Source: a virus. Taken from it: DNA of 42,475 bases. The DNA is taken from positions 1-42,475 of the IMG/VR virus record IMGVR_UViG_3300005511_000022. The stretch is one strand, 5' to 3'. Below are positions 30,251 through 42,332 of the stretch, one piece after another. The stretch's first letter is position 1. Each line of letters starts with the position of its first letter. Position numbers and translations under genes: made by a program. Below the pieces are notes generated by a model. The model made no database searches. It was given only the letters and a program-made list of their open reading frames with translations, and was not told where the DNA came from.

Positions 30251-30495
30251 GCTTCACCTTTGAGGATGCGCGCTATCCGCCTGACTGTGGCGTTGGCACC
30301 GGGGGTTATCTGTTCAAGCGCTCGGTCGATGCGAGCGTTCTTCGCTGCCAGAGCGTCAGAGGCTGCGCAGTCGGTGTGCATGTCAGACACGTTTCCTCCC
30401 TTGGACGCAGCCCGAACAGAGCCAGCAAGAAATGCTGCTGCTATGCAGGACAGGGGGAAGATGATGGCGAGCCAGATGGGTACAGTGACGGTCAT
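30247..30495 (-). CDS. Small membrane protein of the early operon
   Basis: 82 aa. One N-terminal membrane helix (about 5-25, PIWLAIIFPLSCIAAAFLAG) is followed by a helical cytoplasmic or periplasmic part (ALAAKNARIDRALEQI). Starts in an ATGA overlap with the LexA-like gene. It is the only membrane protein among the leftward early genes. Function unknown. Confidence 0.6.
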   Translation of the reverse strand: MTVTVPIWLAIIFPLSCIAAAFLAGSVRAASKGGNVSDMHTDCAASDALAAKNARIDRALEQITPGANATVRRIARILKGEA

Positions 30496-30818
30496 GCCGA
30501 GGCCCTTTCGACATGGAAGCCGCGAGCCTCGATTTCAGCAATCAAGACGTCAGTATCCTCACGCAGCAGGGGGCGCGCCTTCACCGGCGCGAGAATGGGG
30601 CGGGGCGTCTCAAGGATTTCGATGGCGCGGGCGAAGTTGGGAACCCGACGAACGTATCCGCGGTACTCCAGAGCATCGATGAGGCGGTGCACGCCGGACT
30701 TCGCTTTTAGCCCGAGCGCGTCGGCCATCTCCTGATAGGATGGGCAGACGCCATCGGCCGCCATGCGCTCCCCAATGAGATCGAGGCACTCGCGCTGCTT
30801 GGGGGTGAGGCCCATCAT
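30492..30818 (-). CDS. LexA-type winged-helix regulator without protease domain
   Basis: 108 aa. Residues 1-65 match the LexA DNA-binding domain: LTPKQRECLDLIGERM, PSYQEMADALGLKAKSGVHRL and YRGYVRRVPNFARAIEI. The rest is a short tail with no Ser-Lys self-cleavage domain, so it cannot be cleaved as LexA is. It probably binds operator DNA in an early phage promoter or at host SOS sites. The start is an ATGA overlap with the HTH gene. Confidence 0.72.
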   Translation of the reverse strand: MMGLTPKQRECLDLIGERMAADGVCPSYQEMADALGLKAKSGVHRLIDALEYRGYVRRVPNFARAIEILETPRPILAPVKARPLLREDTDVLIAEIEARGFHVERASA

Positions 30819-31418: not shown

Positions 31419-31552
31419 GCCCCGGCAGCCAGTGGACGACTGCCGGGGCTCCAGCGCGCGAGAGGAAGAAACGCGCCGGGAATTGGTGGGCTGGCATCCC
31501 CCGACCAGAGGGGAGCCAGCCCCGCCAACGCCGAGAGAGGGAACGGCGTTGG
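31419..31552 (-). ncRNA. Four tandem hairpins in the leader between cro and the next gene
   Basis: The gap 31253-31583 has no convincing gene. In leftward transcript order it holds: a 9-pair stem CCAACGCCG/CGGCGTTGG (31525-31552); an 8+5-pair stem GGGCTGGC...GCCAGCCC (31488-31522); a 5-pair stem (31456-31476); and a perfect 10-pair stem GCCCCGGCAG/CTGCCGGGGC (31419-31449). None has a U tract. Position and structure recall lambda nutR/tR1 or HK022 put sites. A 113-codon - strand frame runs through it but has no ribosome site and odd composition. Confidence 0.5.
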
Positions 31553-31583
31553 TGATGTTGAAGTGGTCCCCCCGGGGCATGGG

Positions 31584-31805
31584 CTAGGCAGCCGCCCCAG
31601 TGGCGCGCGCTTCCGCAACGATCGGGGAAAGGCCACTGGCGCTGATCAGACCGCCAGTTTGCGTCTCGACCTTCAAAGCAAGGTGCGGCGGCCACTCATT
31701 GGAATTGCGCAACTGCGACAATCTGGCCTTGGTAACGCCGATGGCAGCGCTTAGCGCCGTCATGTTCATTGCGTCGGGGCGAGCGAGGTAATCTTCAAGC
31801 GTCAT
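31584..31805 (-). CDS. Cro-like / YdaS-like repressor
   Basis: 73 aa from ATG 31805 (31811 is possible). The small HTH protein reads TLEDYLARPDAMNMTALSAAI, GVTKARLSQLRNSNEWP, with a short tail, as in YdaS/Cro-type regulators. The gene is divergent from the CI-like gene at 31900, with operators between them. No Shine-Dalgarno sequence is present, and the predicted transcript start falls on or next to the ATG, so it may be leaderless. Confidence 0.75.
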   Translation of the reverse strand: MTLEDYLARPDAMNMTALSAAIGVTKARLSQLRNSNEWPPHLALKVETQTGGLISASGLSPIVAEARATGAAA

Positions 31806-31812
31806 GGACATT

Positions 31813-31866
31813 CGTTTAGACCATCTAAACGTCAGCCACAAGCACTTTTGTTTAGGCAGGCGAAAC
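31813..31866 (-). promoter_or_regulatory. Leftward early promoter with two operators
   Basis: On the - strand: -35 TTGTGG (31841-31836), 17-base spacer, -10 TAAACG (31818-31813). The perfect operator GTTTAG-N5-CTAAAC (core 31814-31830, palindrome 31813-31831) covers spacer and -10. A degenerate operator GTTTCG-N5-CTAAAC (31866-31850) lies upstream. The same module occurs at 32701-32753 facing the other way. Promoter activity and repressor binding are inferred from this match and from the flanking repressor genes. Confidence 0.75.
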
Positions 31867-31899
31867 GACTTTGCGCGTGAAGGCGATTATCCTTGGTGG

Positions 31900-32217
31900 A
31901 TGAATACGCCTTTCCACGACTGGTACTTGAAAGAGTGGCTAGCCACCCTGCGCAAGAAGCAGGCCGATATTGCGCGCGACCTCGATTGGAACAAGGCGCG
32001 TGTAAGCCTGATGATCCGCGGTGAGCAGCAATACAATCGCGACGCGATCAATGAACTGGCGGCTTACCTGAATATTCGCCCGCATGAGCTGCTGATGCAT
32101 CCCGACGATGCCATGGCGCTTCGCCGGCTGCGCGAGGATGCAGTCAAGATTGCGGCGGAAGCGACGCGCGATGATGCTGCGGAACCGGCGGCCTTAGAAC
32201 GCAAGCGCGCCGGATGA
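31900..32217 (+). CDS. CI-like prophage repressor (XRE family)
   Basis: 105 aa from ATG 31900; an upstream ATG (31804) would overlap cro and both operators. HTH at about residues 14-60: WLATLRKKQADIARDLDWN, KARVSLMIRGEQQYNRDA, INELAAYLNIRPHELL, then a charged tail. There is no LexA-type cleavage domain, so induction must work differently from lambda CI. The gene lies between the two operator modules and is coupled to a membrane protein gene. No strong promoter was found. Confidence 0.8.
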   Translation: MNTPFHDWYLKEWLATLRKKQADIARDLDWNKARVSLMIRGEQQYNRDAINELAAYLNIRPHELLMHPDDAMALRRLREDAVKIAAEATRDDAAEPAALERKRAG

Positions 32218-32591
32218 TCAACGATGACGACGAGGACGAGCAACGTCCTGGATATGACGGGCATTGGGAGAAAGTCTTTAATGAGAACCCAGAGATGTCC
32301 GCAGATGCGCGAAGGATAAGGGCCCTTATCAAAGCCGATCACGATACACAGCGATCGATAGCCGAGCTTCGCGGAAAGTTGGGTGCGGCTCATTCCAAAG
32401 TCCGCAGGCTAAGAAACGCCACTGTCGGCCTGCTTGGCCCGGTGCTGTTGGGCGGCGGGTGGGCATTCTTTACCGCCCTTGAGCGTGCGGAGGGGTTCTG
32501 GTCAAACCTGCTTGTTTGGGGCGCGGGAGCGTTCGGCTTCTACTGGCTATACGAGACAGGCAAAGAGTTCGATGACGTGACCCGCGATTAG
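32214..32591 (+). CDS. Membrane protein co-transcribed with the repressor
   Basis: 125 aa, ATGA overlap with the repressor. The first 60 residues are soluble, acidic then helical (SADARRIRALIKADHDTQRS). Two membrane helices follow, about 68-87 (ATVGLLGPVLLGGGWAFFTAL) and 95-113 (SNLLVWGAGAFGFYWLY). Because it shares an operon with the repressor, it should be made in the lysogen. Superinfection exclusion is the leading hypothesis; nothing in the sequence proves it. Confidence 0.65.
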   Translation: MINDDDEDEQRPGYDGHWEKVFNENPEMSADARRIRALIKADHDTQRSIAELRGKLGAAHSKVRRLRNATVGLLGPVLLGGGWAFFTALERAEGFWSNLLVWGAGAFGFYWLYETGKEFDDVTRD

Positions 32592-32644
32592 CCACGCTCA
32601 ACCTCGCGAAAAACTGCTTTCCTACAATATACCCGTAACCCACA

Positions 32645-32667
32645 CCCGACGAGCAGCGCGCGTCGGG
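32645..32667. terminator. Possible hairpin terminator after the repressor operon
   Basis: CCCGACG (32645-32651) pairs perfectly with CGTCGGG (32661-32667) around a nine-base loop, 54 bases after the membrane-protein stop and 34 bases before the rightward operators. No U tract follows on either strand, so termination would be weak or factor-assisted. Confidence 0.4.
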
Positions 32668-32700
32668 CAACTCATTGATTCGCAAGCGCCGATCAAAAAT

Positions 32701-32753
32701 GTTTCGCTGATCTAAACTTTTCTCTTGTGCATTTCGTTTAGCGTGTCTAAACA
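32701..32753 (+). promoter_or_regulatory. Rightward early promoter with two operators
   Basis: -35 TTGTGC (32725-32730), 17-base spacer, -10 TAAACA (32748-32753). A perfect operator GTTTAG-N5-CTAAAC (32736-32752) covers spacer and -10, and a degenerate GTTTCG-N5-CTAAAC (32701-32717) lies 35 bp upstream, centre to centre. It is a near copy of the module at 31813-31866 with one base less between operator and -35. Transcription should start near 32760 and enter the gene at 32782. Confidence 0.78.
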
Positions 32754-32781
32754 GGTTCCAACGAAGCAGTTGGAGCCGACC

Positions 32782-33027
32782 ATGACAATCACCCTCACCC
32801 AGTTCGAAGCCATCAACGAGCTTCACCAGTCGCTCCTTCGCATGGGCGACTTCGAAACCTGCGCCGATCCGCGCGGCTACATCTCCACCAGCAACCGCCT
32901 TCTGGACACCTGCATTGAGGTGCTCGGCTACGATCACGTCGATGGCTTTGCCTCGGCGGAGGATTGCGCTGCGGACTTCGTTGCCCGCGCCATGCTCTCG
33001 GCTGACATGGTGGAGTGTGACGCATGA
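32782..33027 (+). CDS. First gene of the rightward early operon
   Basis: 81 aa from ATG 32782 with TTGGAG upstream. Helical N-terminus (LTQFEAINELHQSLLRMGDF), then RGYISTSNRLLDTCIEVLGY and an acidic Ala-rich end. Leading genes of repressed early operons often encode anti-host or anti-repressor proteins; no motif shows which. Coupled to the next gene by ATGA. Confidence 0.6.
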   Translation: MTITLTQFEAINELHQSLLRMGDFETCADPRGYISTSNRLLDTCIEVLGYDHVDGFASAEDCAADFVARAMLSADMVECDA

Positions 33028-35625: not shown

Positions 35626-35756
35626 TCCGCGTCCACAACCGCCACCGTCGGTGCACTGGCCTACCCCTCTATGGGTACTGTCCGGGATGGGGGATGATGG
35701 CACTCGCTGCCGCTTTCGGATTTCTCGCAATCGCTATTTGGAGCCACACGCTATGA
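35622..35756 (+). CDS. Small membrane protein
   Basis: 44 aa from ATG 35622, with ATGA overlaps at both ends. A basic start (RVHNRHRRCTG) is followed by one membrane helix (GMMALAAAFGFLAIAIW). The positive-inside rule suggests the N-terminus stays in the cytoplasm. Function unknown; it lies directly before the recombinase gene. Confidence 0.5.
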   Translation: MIRVHNRHRRCTGLPLYGYCPGWGMMALAAAFGFLAIAIWSHTL

Positions 35757-36601
35757 CCGCCGTTCAGAAAGTCGAACCCACCGCCAACCAGGTTGCTGAA
35801 TACAGCAGCGGCATCCTCGCCGTCATCGAGCGGGCGGCGCGCGATCCGAATGTCGATATCGACAAGATGGAGCGCCTTATCCTGATGCAAGAGCGGGTTC
35901 AAAGCCGCGAAGCACAGACCGCATACTACGCCGACTTGGCTAAAATGCAACCAAATCTGCCGATTATCGACGAGCGCGGCGGCATCAAAGGCCGCGATGG
36001 GCAGGTTCAATCCACCTATGCTCTTTGGGAGGACGTGAACGAGGCAATCCGCCCGACGCTGGCAGAGCATGGATTTTCGCTCAGCTTCCGCGTGTCGCGC
36101 GCAGAGGGAGAGATTGTCGTCACCGGCATCCTCGCCCACCACTTTGGGCACCGCGAGGAAACGACGCTCGCACTGCCGACTGATACCAGCGGAAGCAAGA
36201 ATGCTGTTCAGGCGGTCGGGTCATCGACGAGCTACGGCAAGCGCTACACCGCCTTTGCCCTGCTCAACCTCACCACGACAGGCGAGGATGACGACGGCAA
36301 CAAGGCGGGCGCGAAGATCGTCCACGACGCCGCGCGCGATGCCCCGTTCCCCCAAGGCCCCGCCGCCAACAAGACATCGCTCAAGGCTCTAGGACGCGAC
36401 CTGTGGCGCGACGTGCTGGCCTGTGGCGACCTCGACACCCTCGAAACCCTGCTCGCCACCAATCAGGCGCTCATCGCCCAGCTCAAGGCGGGAATGTCCT
36501 CATGGTGGGAAGGCGGGCAAGATCAGTCGGGCATGTCCTTTGAAGGGCTGGGCCAGATCATCGACCGCATGAAGCGCGATTTTGAGAATGGGATCGGCTG
36601 A
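35753..36601 (+). CDS. ERF-family single-strand annealing protein
   Basis: 282 aa from ATG 35753 (ATGA overlap). ERF hallmarks: FYADLAKMQP-like AYYADLAKMQPNLPIIDE, STYALWEDVNEAIRPTLAEH, GFSLSFRV, and AVQAVGSSTSYGKRYTAFAL followed by GEDDDGN. ERF proteins anneal complementary single strands during phage recombination and circularisation. SSB follows one gene later, fitting a recombination module. The C-terminal 90 residues are less conserved. Confidence 0.9.
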   Translation: MTAVQKVEPTANQVAEYSSGILAVIERAARDPNVDIDKMERLILMQERVQSREAQTAYYADLAKMQPNLPIIDERGGIKGRDGQVQSTYALWEDVNEAIRPTLAEHGFSLSFRVSRAEGEIVVTGILAHHFGHREETTLALPTDTSGSKNAVQAVGSSTSYGKRYTAFALLNLTTTGEDDDGNKAGAKIVHDAARDAPFPQGPAANKTSLKALGRDLWRDVLACGDLDTLETLLATNQALIAQLKAGMSSWWEGGQDQSGMSFEGLGQIIDRMKRDFENGIG

Positions 36602-40978: not shown

Positions 40979-41262
40979 CATTCCAGTCGATCGCCTCGAA
41001 ATTCCGGCGGGCGCTCCGCAACGAAACCGGCGTCAGCTTCACCAATGACCAGCTTCGCCTTATGGCAGAGGCTGGATTCCTAGAACATGCTGCCCGACTG
41101 GAGGCCGAAGAACTGTGTCCCGTGAAACCTCGCCTTTCGAATATGGCGGCTTCTGGCTCGACAAAAGGCGCGACGGCAAGTCCCCCGACACCTGGCAGAT
41201 TGCCCGCTACGACGGATCCACGATCCTTTATCGCAGCACTAAGCGGCGGACGGAGCAATTAG
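40975..41262 (+). CDS. Hypothetical protein overlapping the integrase start
   Basis: 95 aa from ATG 40975 (ATGA overlap). The first 48 residues are a sensible helical domain (SIASKFRRALRNETGVSFT, DQLRLMAEAGFLEHAARL). The last half is Ser/Pro/Thr-rich and reads in another frame through the first 148 bases of the integrase gene, so it may be shaped by the integrase code rather than by its own function. Confidence 0.55.
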   Translation: MTFQSIASKFRRALRNETGVSFTNDQLRLMAEAGFLEHAARLEAEELCPVKPRLSNMAASGSTKGATASPPTPGRLPATTDPRSFIAALSGGRSN

Positions 41263-42332
41263 AGGATGCGAAAGACGTCCTCATTGCGCACGCTGCCACC
41301 GCGCAGGCGAAGGGCAAACAGGACGCCGATAGCGCAATGGTGGCGCCGCTGCTCGTCCTCTACTGGGAAGAGCATGGCAAAAACGTTCTGCGCCCCGGCC
41401 AGGTCGCCAGCTCGCTCCGCCAGTTCATCGGCTTCATGCTGCAAGACGAGATCGGGGCTATGGCGACCGTAGCCCAGCTTACGCCCACGGTGTTCACCCG
41501 TTTCCGCAAATGGCGGATGAAGCCGCACGAATATTCGGTGCCGTGGGAGGGCGAGACGTTCGCCCACAAGTCAGCCGGCGTCGCTGGCGAGAGTGTGCAG
41601 CGCAACATCGACGACATTCGCGCCGCGCTGCATCACCATGAGGAAGAGGGGCGCATAACCGTACCCCGGATCAAGTCGGTTCCCAAGGGACTGCGCAGCC
41701 CGCCGCGTGACTTGATCCTGTCCGTTGAGCAGCTTGGCGCAATGGTCGGCTTTGCCCGAATGCTGCCCGATAAGGAGCTATACCAGTTCATCGCCCTTAT
41801 GCTGGCGACGTGCGGCCGATCCGAGGTCGCAGCGCTGTTCGATCCGGCGACCCAATATAATCCTGGCACTGGCATCATTGACCTCCATCCCGCCAACCGG
41901 ATGCGCTCGCACAAGCGCAACGCGCTCGTTCCGGCGATCGATGAAATCAAGCCGGTGCTCAAGGCGTGGGCGAAGGCGGGAGCGAACCCGGCAAAGTCGC
42001 GCAAGAAGGCGTGGCGGACGATGCGCGCTGCGCTCGATCTGCCCAAGGAGGTATTGCCGACCACAATCCGGCACACGGTCGCCACCATGTTGCGCAACGA
42101 TCCTGACACGCCGACGCACCTCGTCGACGAGTTCATGGGGCACGTCGATCTGGATGCGACGACCCAGCGTTATGCGAAATTGAGCACGGAATATCTCGCC
42201 AATATCAAGCCGGGGCTGGCCAAGATCTGGAATGCTGTTATGGGGGAAGCCAACCGATGGGCTTCTGACCATTCTCTGACCACACCTTTGCGGGGGGTCA
42301 AACTTTCTGTTGTAAAGCGCAGCGGAAAGTAG
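41115..42332 (+). CDS. int: Tyrosine integrase
   Basis: 405 aa from GTG 41115. Catalytic residues are in order: Arg 235 (CGRSEVAAL), Arg 319 in TTIRHTVATM (the first His of the usual HxxR box is Thr), His 343 (MGHVDLD) and the nucleophile Tyr 353 (TTQRYAKL). Residues about 75-190 form the core-binding part. It recombines attP with the tRNA-Val gene. Its last codons (384-391) contain the right arm-type sites, and the stop lies 23 bases before the att core. Confidence 0.95.
   Translation: MSRETSPFEYGGFWLDKRRDGKSPDTWQIARYDGSTILYRSTKRRTEQLEDAKDVLIAHAATAQAKGKQDADSAMVAPLLVLYWEEHGKNVLRPGQVASSLRQFIGFMLQDEIGAMATVAQLTPTVFTRFRKWRMKPHEYSVPWEGETFAHKSAGVAGESVQRNIDDIRAALHHHEEEGRITVPRIKSVPKGLRSPPRDLILSVEQLGAMVGFARMLPDKELYQFIALMLATCGRSEVAALFDPATQYNPGTGIIDLHPANRMRSHKRNALVPAIDEIKPVLKAWAKAGANPAKSRKKAWRTMRAALDLPKEVLPTTIRHTVATMLRNDPDTPTHLVDEFMGHVDLDATTQRYAKLSTEYLANIKPGLAKIWNAVMGEANRWASDHSLTTPLRGVKLSVVKRSGK
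42264..42283 (+). promoter_or_regulatory. Arm-type integrase binding sites, right arm
   Basis: Exact 20-bp copy of 191-210, again two TCTGACCA elements 11 bp apart, 73-92 bp before the att core. Here the DNA also codes integrase residues SDHSLTT, so the binding sites are inside the gene of the protein they probably bind. Confidence 0.75.

Follow-up and report, generated by a model that had tools for sequence, protein, structure and literature searches.

We analysed a stretch of viral DNA of 42,475 nucleotides (nt) (IMG/VR record IMGVR_UViG_3300005511_000022, positions 1 to 42,475; hereafter the window), in which the gene of a small repressor lies between two outward-facing promoter-operator modules at positions 31,813–32,753. 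Very likely it is an immunity region, belonging to a temperate phage and built on the plan of phage lambda in mirror image, with the left module taking the place of OR and the right module that of OL. In the mechanism that we propose, the lysogen would express both a repressor of 105 amino acids (aa) and a cargo gene from a maintenance promoter that is leaderless, and the repressor would bind palindromes of 17 base pairs (bp) with the form GTTTAG-N5-CTAAAC. Each outward early promoter would possess a high-affinity perfect operator (O1) over its spacer and −10 element and a weaker operator (O2) about 35 bp upstream, past the −35 element. Occupancy of O1 would block RNA polymerase and thus keep both early operons off, namely, on the left, the cro-like and replication genes and, on the right, those for recombination and the integrase. 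Left O2, at position −42, may place bound repressor so that it helps its own promoter, as OR2 does in lambda, and during lytic growth a Cro-like protein with a helix similar to that of the repressor would probably compete for the same sites. RNA that reads through from the repressor operon is predicted to fold a hairpin over the ribosome-binding site of the early gene, and RNA started at the right promoter would be made without the 5′ arm of that hairpin.

The window contains four operators, at 31814–31830, 31850–31866, 32701–32717 and 32736–32752. Read on the minus strand from 31866 to 31813, the left module consists of GTTTCG-CCTGC-CTAAAC (O2, 31850–31866), a 19-bp link, TTGTGG, 17 bp and TAAACG, and the perfect operator GTTTAG-ATGGT-CTAAAC (O1, 31830–31814) lies over the spacer and −10 element. 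The right module, read on the plus strand from 32701 to 32753, has the same order: GTTTCG-CTGAT-CTAAAC (O2, 32701–32717), an 18-bp link, TTGTGC, 17 bp and TAAACA, with the perfect O1 (32736–32752) again spanning spacer and −10. The operator centres are 36 bp apart on the left (31858/31822) and 35 bp apart on the right (32709/32744), that is, 3.3–3.4 helical turns. The original prediction had described this layout, with its motifs, coordinates and distances, and every detail was exact when the sequence was read again. The two elements would form a leftward promoter corresponding to lambda PR (P_cro, 31813–31841, minus strand; −35 TTGTGG at 31841–31836, −10 TAAACG at 31818–31813) and a rightward early promoter corresponding to lambda PL (32725–32753, plus strand; −35 TTGTGC at 32725–32730, −10 TAAACA at 32748–32753), the latter with a predicted start at A 32760; an A at position 8 after TAAAC recurs in relatives. 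With up to two mismatches allowed, GTTTNG-N5-CTAAAC has 14 matches in the window against 4.7 expected, and none of 100 shuffled sequences reached 14. No further site with at most one mismatch occurs elsewhere in the 42-kb window, and no third operator is present near the repressor start, so that there are two sites per side and not the three of lambda. A weak fifth operator-like site with two mismatches (32586–32602), situated on the stop codon of the partner gene downstream of the repressor, is shared only with locus L005 (L numbers are our labels for loci) and was judged incidental.

Close relatives were gathered by protein search with the repressor and by DNA pattern scans, giving about 20 distinct phages and prophages, mostly of Sphingomonadales (those named include Sphingopyxis, among them S. 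witflariensis and S. terrae, and further Sphingomonas, Qipengyuania and Sphingorhabdus). Both modules are kept in nearly all of them, and a few contigs show one module only. In 19/19 right modules the link is 18 bp long and the start of TTG is 11 bases from O1, whereas the left link is 19 bp (15 cases) or 18 bp (6 cases), with TTG 11–12 bases from O1 in 20/21. Every one of the 19 right modules compared and most of the left modules have GTTTCG as outer half-site, and since it is conserved to this extent the asymmetry between O1 and O2 looks to be under selection; the slightly more distant L031 and L165 deviate in this pattern. The perfect operator was also searched for in six bacterial genomes (2.9–5.6 Mb) that carry a relative, as had been proposed for the host: each has exactly two copies, one on either side of the repressor gene; the reversed pattern, used as a control, does not occur in the same genomes. 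A DNA search of the region among annotated phages and a search of plasmids with the repressor gave no match. Three loci provide what amounts to a natural repressor-loss allele, in which the repressor has lost its promoter and its N-terminal half, including the helix-turn-helix (HTH), between twin modules that are otherwise intact (L033 6696–7186, likewise L032 and L040). In a metagenome-assembled genome of Sphingorhabdus (L128 3182–3340) the modules stand back to back at a distance of about 50 bp, and no repressor gene separates them. The pattern scans also returned matches that were put aside, as the retrieved stretches contain no related repressor. In those of Geobacteraceae (L093, L106, L111, L143; loci unrelated) a pair of GTTTAG-N5-CTAAAC sites at a distance of 17 bp flanks a TTGACA-like element, which looks like the conserved promoter of another regulator, and in those of Clostridia (L048, L107, L126, L142 and others) such pairs adjoin a ATTAAACCACA motif that is conserved, a separate element that recurs.

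The repressor itself (105 aa, 31900–32217, plus strand) matches Pfam HTH_26 above the gathering score. Its recognition helix comprises residues 31–40, NKARVSLMIR (31990–32019), and a long C-terminal helix covers residues 68–93; the AlphaFold2 (AF2) model, with a mean predicted local distance difference test (pLDDT) score of 81.9, consists of the HTH and one long helix. By Pfam and in the AF2 model there is no LexA/CI peptidase domain for autoproteolysis or oligomerisation, and a fold search of the PDB gave general HTH matches, none at E ≤ 0.001. An alignment-based scan extended the family to 57 repressor loci, down to about 41% identity, and in each of them palindromes were sought upstream of the repressor without use of the window motif. 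Many, with more distant repressors whose recognition helices differ, show other SPECIFICITIES on an unchanged plan, with 17-bp palindromes of the GTTTC, GTTTG, GTTCA, GTTCC, GTTCG and TTTCA types. The same motif recurs as a downstream pair in 41 of 53 loci and never in shuffled controls, a count that includes close relatives and some duplicate contigs and accepts only spacings of 33–37 or 44–46 bp. When de-duplicated loci were recounted with any spacing from 17 to 90 bp accepted, the downstream pairs were spaced at 34 (13 loci), 35 (21), 36 (3) and 45 bp (2) and at no other distance; the upstream spacings were mostly 34–36 or 68–69 bp, which is once or twice about 34.5, and some distant relatives have left arrays of three sites with a degenerate middle one. 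As only spacings of 34–36 or 45 bp appear in this unbiased count, cooperative or phased binding at O1 and O2, the former already suggested in the original prediction, is plausible. Further, once the remainder of the protein is controlled for, the distance between recognition helices predicts that between operators (partial Mantel r 0.59; 0/2000 permutations), the best predicting helix columns being residues 31 and 37 across about 36 family members. The proposal that one type of operator serves two outward early operons thus gains from its retention in some 20 relatives and from this covariation, and it is the reading of repressor binding at these sites that we keep, as a prediction.

The left module would serve two divergent genes. 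The Cro-like regulator of 73 aa (31584–31805, minus strand), first gene of the leftward operon, is a putative member of the YdaS/Cro family (phrog_35, E 5.8e-6); its start at 31805 is conserved and an upstream ATG at 31811 is not. The alignment of its family has its best PDB matches in Cro/YdaS of CP-933P (8co2, E 2e-8; 8c7k, E 2.8e-8), the single protein scores 16.9 bits with Pfam YdaS, under the cut-off of 30, and its AF2 model (pLDDT 90.5) has YdaS 8c7k as top fold match, weak at E 0.014. The ATG follows TAAAC by 7–9 nt in relatives, a gap too short for a ribosome-binding site, and hence the mRNA is probably leaderless. In the opposite direction the putative maintenance promoter P_RM (31864–31892, plus strand; −35 AACGAC at 31864–31869, 17 bp, −10 TTATCC at 31887–31892) has a −35 element that overlaps the end of left O2 and a predicted start at 31900, the first base of the repressor ATG. 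In 19/19 relatives left O2 is centred exactly 42 bp upstream of the A of this ATG, and most relatives have GAC abutting left O2 and a TAT/GGTATC element 9–12 nt before the ATG. This is most simply read as a repressor mRNA without a leader, made from a promoter whose −35 overlaps the edge of O2, as in lambda PRM and OR2, and given such a start left O2 is predicted to occupy the −42 position of lambda OR2.

The right module is followed directly by a hairpin, GGTTCCAAC...GTTGGAGCC (32754–32777, plus strand), whose 3′ arm holds the Shine-Dalgarno (SD) sequence GGAG (32772–32775) and whose 5′ arm includes the predicted transcription start. Its folding energy is −15.6 kcal/mol (z −6.2), and only −1.8 kcal/mol if the RNA begins at A 32760. 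A stem stands directly after TAAAC in 18/21 close relatives (exceptions are L009, L025 and L149), with the 3′ arm ending just before the start codon and usually carrying GGAG or GAGG. The arms covary: when 5′ arms were permuted among phages, none of 20,000 permutations matched the observed pairing, and none of 5000 in distant relatives. Across 30 leaders the accessibility of the SD is 0.16 in read-through RNA and 0.34 in RNA from the predicted start, a comparison that is biased since any 5′ trimming frees bases; the fairer test is to swap arms, and here accessibility is 0.08 with the own arm and 0.16 with swapped arms (p 0.006), a modest effect. As the stretch from the repressor operon to the right promoter shows no evident terminator, the hairpin could act as a second lock on read-through RNA. 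The OL-type operon would then be doubly locked throughout the family, once by repressor at O1/O2 and once by the hairpin, which would cover the SD in read-through RNA only, and transcription started at the promoter would unlock translation; in our judgement the case for this is evenly balanced. Under such a double lock the hairpin would persist while operator, helix and cargo gene change. The leader hairpin of T4 gene e (also of soc, 49 and I-TevI) is a proven case of start-dependent SD sequestration (PMC3014915). As there, the SD of the window would be sequestered in transcripts from upstream and transcripts from the proximal promoter are predicted to be without the 5′ arm; unlike there, the predicted hairpin belongs to a temperate phage and follows its OL-type promoter, beside an operator of the repressor.

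Another explanation of the hairpin is that rightward transcription starts upstream of position 8 and that every transcript carries it, as an ordinary 5′ stabiliser or a constant translational damper. We consider this possible though somewhat doubtful. Given the weak −10, the true start may lie several bases from the predicted one, and the arms covary irrespective of the start; against this, three features place the start in the 5′ arm, namely the geometry of the promoter, the A that recurs at position 8 and, in the twin module, the distance of 7–9 nt to the cro ATG. Were transcription to begin at the end of O1, a −10 would have to lie within the unconserved N5. The wider lambda-like reading also has observations that weigh against it. 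The −10 elements TAAACR are poor by Escherichia coli rules, a sigma-70 and terminator scan of 31500–33000 called no promoter and no plus-strand terminator, and distant relatives keep only AAC of the −10 region; the consensus promoter of alphaproteobacteria is CTTGAC-N17-CTATAT (PMC2573895), and the hexamers of the window resemble it more closely than the E. coli consensus. In the recount 16 loci have no downstream pair, some of which are explained by a contig end or by degenerate palindromes (L178 was missed in this way). The repressor is without the C-terminal domain behind the cooperativity of lambda CI, and cooperativity is read from spacing alone. Lastly, L128 has no repressor between its modules and L032, L033 and L040 have lost its N-terminal half, yet all four keep the operators.

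This persistence would agree with the Cro-like protein being the main reader of the palindromes, with the repressor acting elsewhere or as a partner, and the helix of the former (SKGRLSQLR/TKARLSQLR) is indeed similar to the repressor's NKARVSLMI. Nevertheless it is the repressor helix with which the operator classes covary, overlapping sites are bound by both proteins of CP-933P (PMC8630535), and the repressor-less cases could be recent losses, so we hold this alternative to be very improbable. That the palindromes arose by chance or belong to a host regulator is practically untenable: GTTTAG-N5-CTAAAC pairs do occur in the unrelated Geobacteraceae and Clostridia loci, but it is refuted by the presence of exactly two copies per genome, both beside the repressor, by an invariant layout in relatives and by downstream pairs that are absent from shuffles. 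A further claim of the original prediction, that the match between the modules looks like the duplication of an entire control region, is not supported: nothing at unconstrained positions points to recent copying. A version in which such a duplication was kept alike by gene conversion seems unlikely to us. The modules do agree in order, in the outer GTTTCG asymmetry, in the distance from TTG to O1 and in the spacer. At unconstrained positions, however, left-right similarity within a phage shows no clear excess over that between phages (32% vs 27%, 37% vs 35% and 33% vs 33%), no signal of concerted evolution of left and right modules was found, and the sides differ consistently (link of 19/18 bp on the left and 18 bp on the right; GAC beside left O2 only). 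One repressor and one polymerase would by selection give the shared layout, and ancient duplication and convergence are indistinguishable with these sequences.

In lambda, the cI-rexAB operon lies between OR, with PRM/PR and cro, and OL, with PL, and among alphaproteobacterial phages the C repressor gene of Sinorhizobium phage 16-3 has operators (OL/OR) on both sides. In the window, as in lambda, an outward early promoter with several operators stands on either side of the repressor operon; further common features are a divergent cro, O2 at −42 of a (predicted) leaderless repressor promoter, a cargo slot after the repressor, and recombination genes with the integrase on one arm. The window differs in its mirror orientation, in two operators per side within its clade (a third left site occurs in some distant relatives), in a spacing of 35–36 bp against the ~23–24 bp (2.2–2.3 turns) of lambda, in a 105-aa repressor without peptidase or oligomerisation domain, in a Cro-like gene predicted to be leaderless and in the hairpin of the right leader. 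The closest tested system is PaaR2/YdaS of CP-933P in E. coli O157:H7, a switch with leaderless paaR2 and, beyond the repressor operon, a second repressed promoter PL that matches PRM/PR (PMC8630535). The Cro-like protein of the window is a candidate for the YdaS type of Cro present there. Both have divergent PRM/PR, a second promoter PL with identical −35/−10 and operators beyond the repressor operon, a leaderless repressor (predicted for the window), the half-site GTTTAG in their palindromes (CP-933P consensus GTTTAGTAA) and cargo after the repressor, in CP-933P a toxin-antitoxin pair (PMC8630535). CP-933P is gammaproteobacterial, its sites are 18 bp and not 17 bp long and their spacing differs; the GTTTCG asymmetry and the SD hairpin do not come up in the sections consulted (PMC8630535). 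Pseudanabaena phage Pam1 and Microcystis phages Mae-JY04/JY28 have a homologous repressor (annotated as CI, 42–57% identity); of these, the isolated phages Mae-JY04 and Pam1 possess twin operators 34–35 bp apart, TTGAC and the SD hairpin as in the window, with recognition helices and operators of other kinds (GTTTC and GTTCG classes). Mae-JY04 (L225) and Pam1 (L226) are recorded from cyanobacteria and carry an otherwise alphaproteobacterial repressor family, and their host assignment may need checking.

The partner gene (32214–32591, plus strand), which begins within the last codons of the repressor and encodes a hydrophobic segment, has no Pfam, PHROG or PADLOC match at the thresholds used. 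In relatives the slot that extends from the repressor to right O2 is either empty or occupied by small genes unrelated to one another, and in the short versions the repressor stop codon TAA falls inside right O2; the position of this slot matches that of rex in lambda. Rap1a, WYL, zinc-ribbon and BRCT domains are among the cargo families, and the Rap1a-like, WYL/TerB and BRCT proteins (among them L177 2663–3022, L186 3315–4094 and L193 3317–4012) are candidates for exclusion or defence functions. The rightward operon opens with an 81-aa gene of no known family (32782–33027, plus strand) and leads to an ERF recombinase (35744–36601) and, at the end of this side, an integrase (41115–42332). On the left there are a RusA resolvase and a weak match to a replication initiator, and the leftward early operon also encodes a short protein matching only the DNA-binding domain of LexA (30492–30818, minus strand; Pfam E 2.3e-15). 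As judged from the predicted genes, this order is the synteny of lambda mirrored, with replication genes on the cro side and recombination genes and integrase opposite.

The overall plan is known from lambda, and departures from it are modules of two sites each, a spacing of 3.3 turns, a short repressor that has no peptidase domain and the hairpin; new is a conserved SD-sequestering hairpin with a predicted start inside its 5′ arm. The family may be considered as a natural experiment, in which a compact repressor diversified its operator classes along with its recognition helix while the spacing of 34–36 (rarely 45) bp, the placement of promoters, the −42 position (in the clade of the window) and the leader hairpin stayed constant. 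Immunity specificity, the rules of spacing without a cooperativity domain and the read-through lock become directly testable in this system, and the two perfect operators per carrier genome offer a simple sequence test for the immunity group of sphingomonad prophages.
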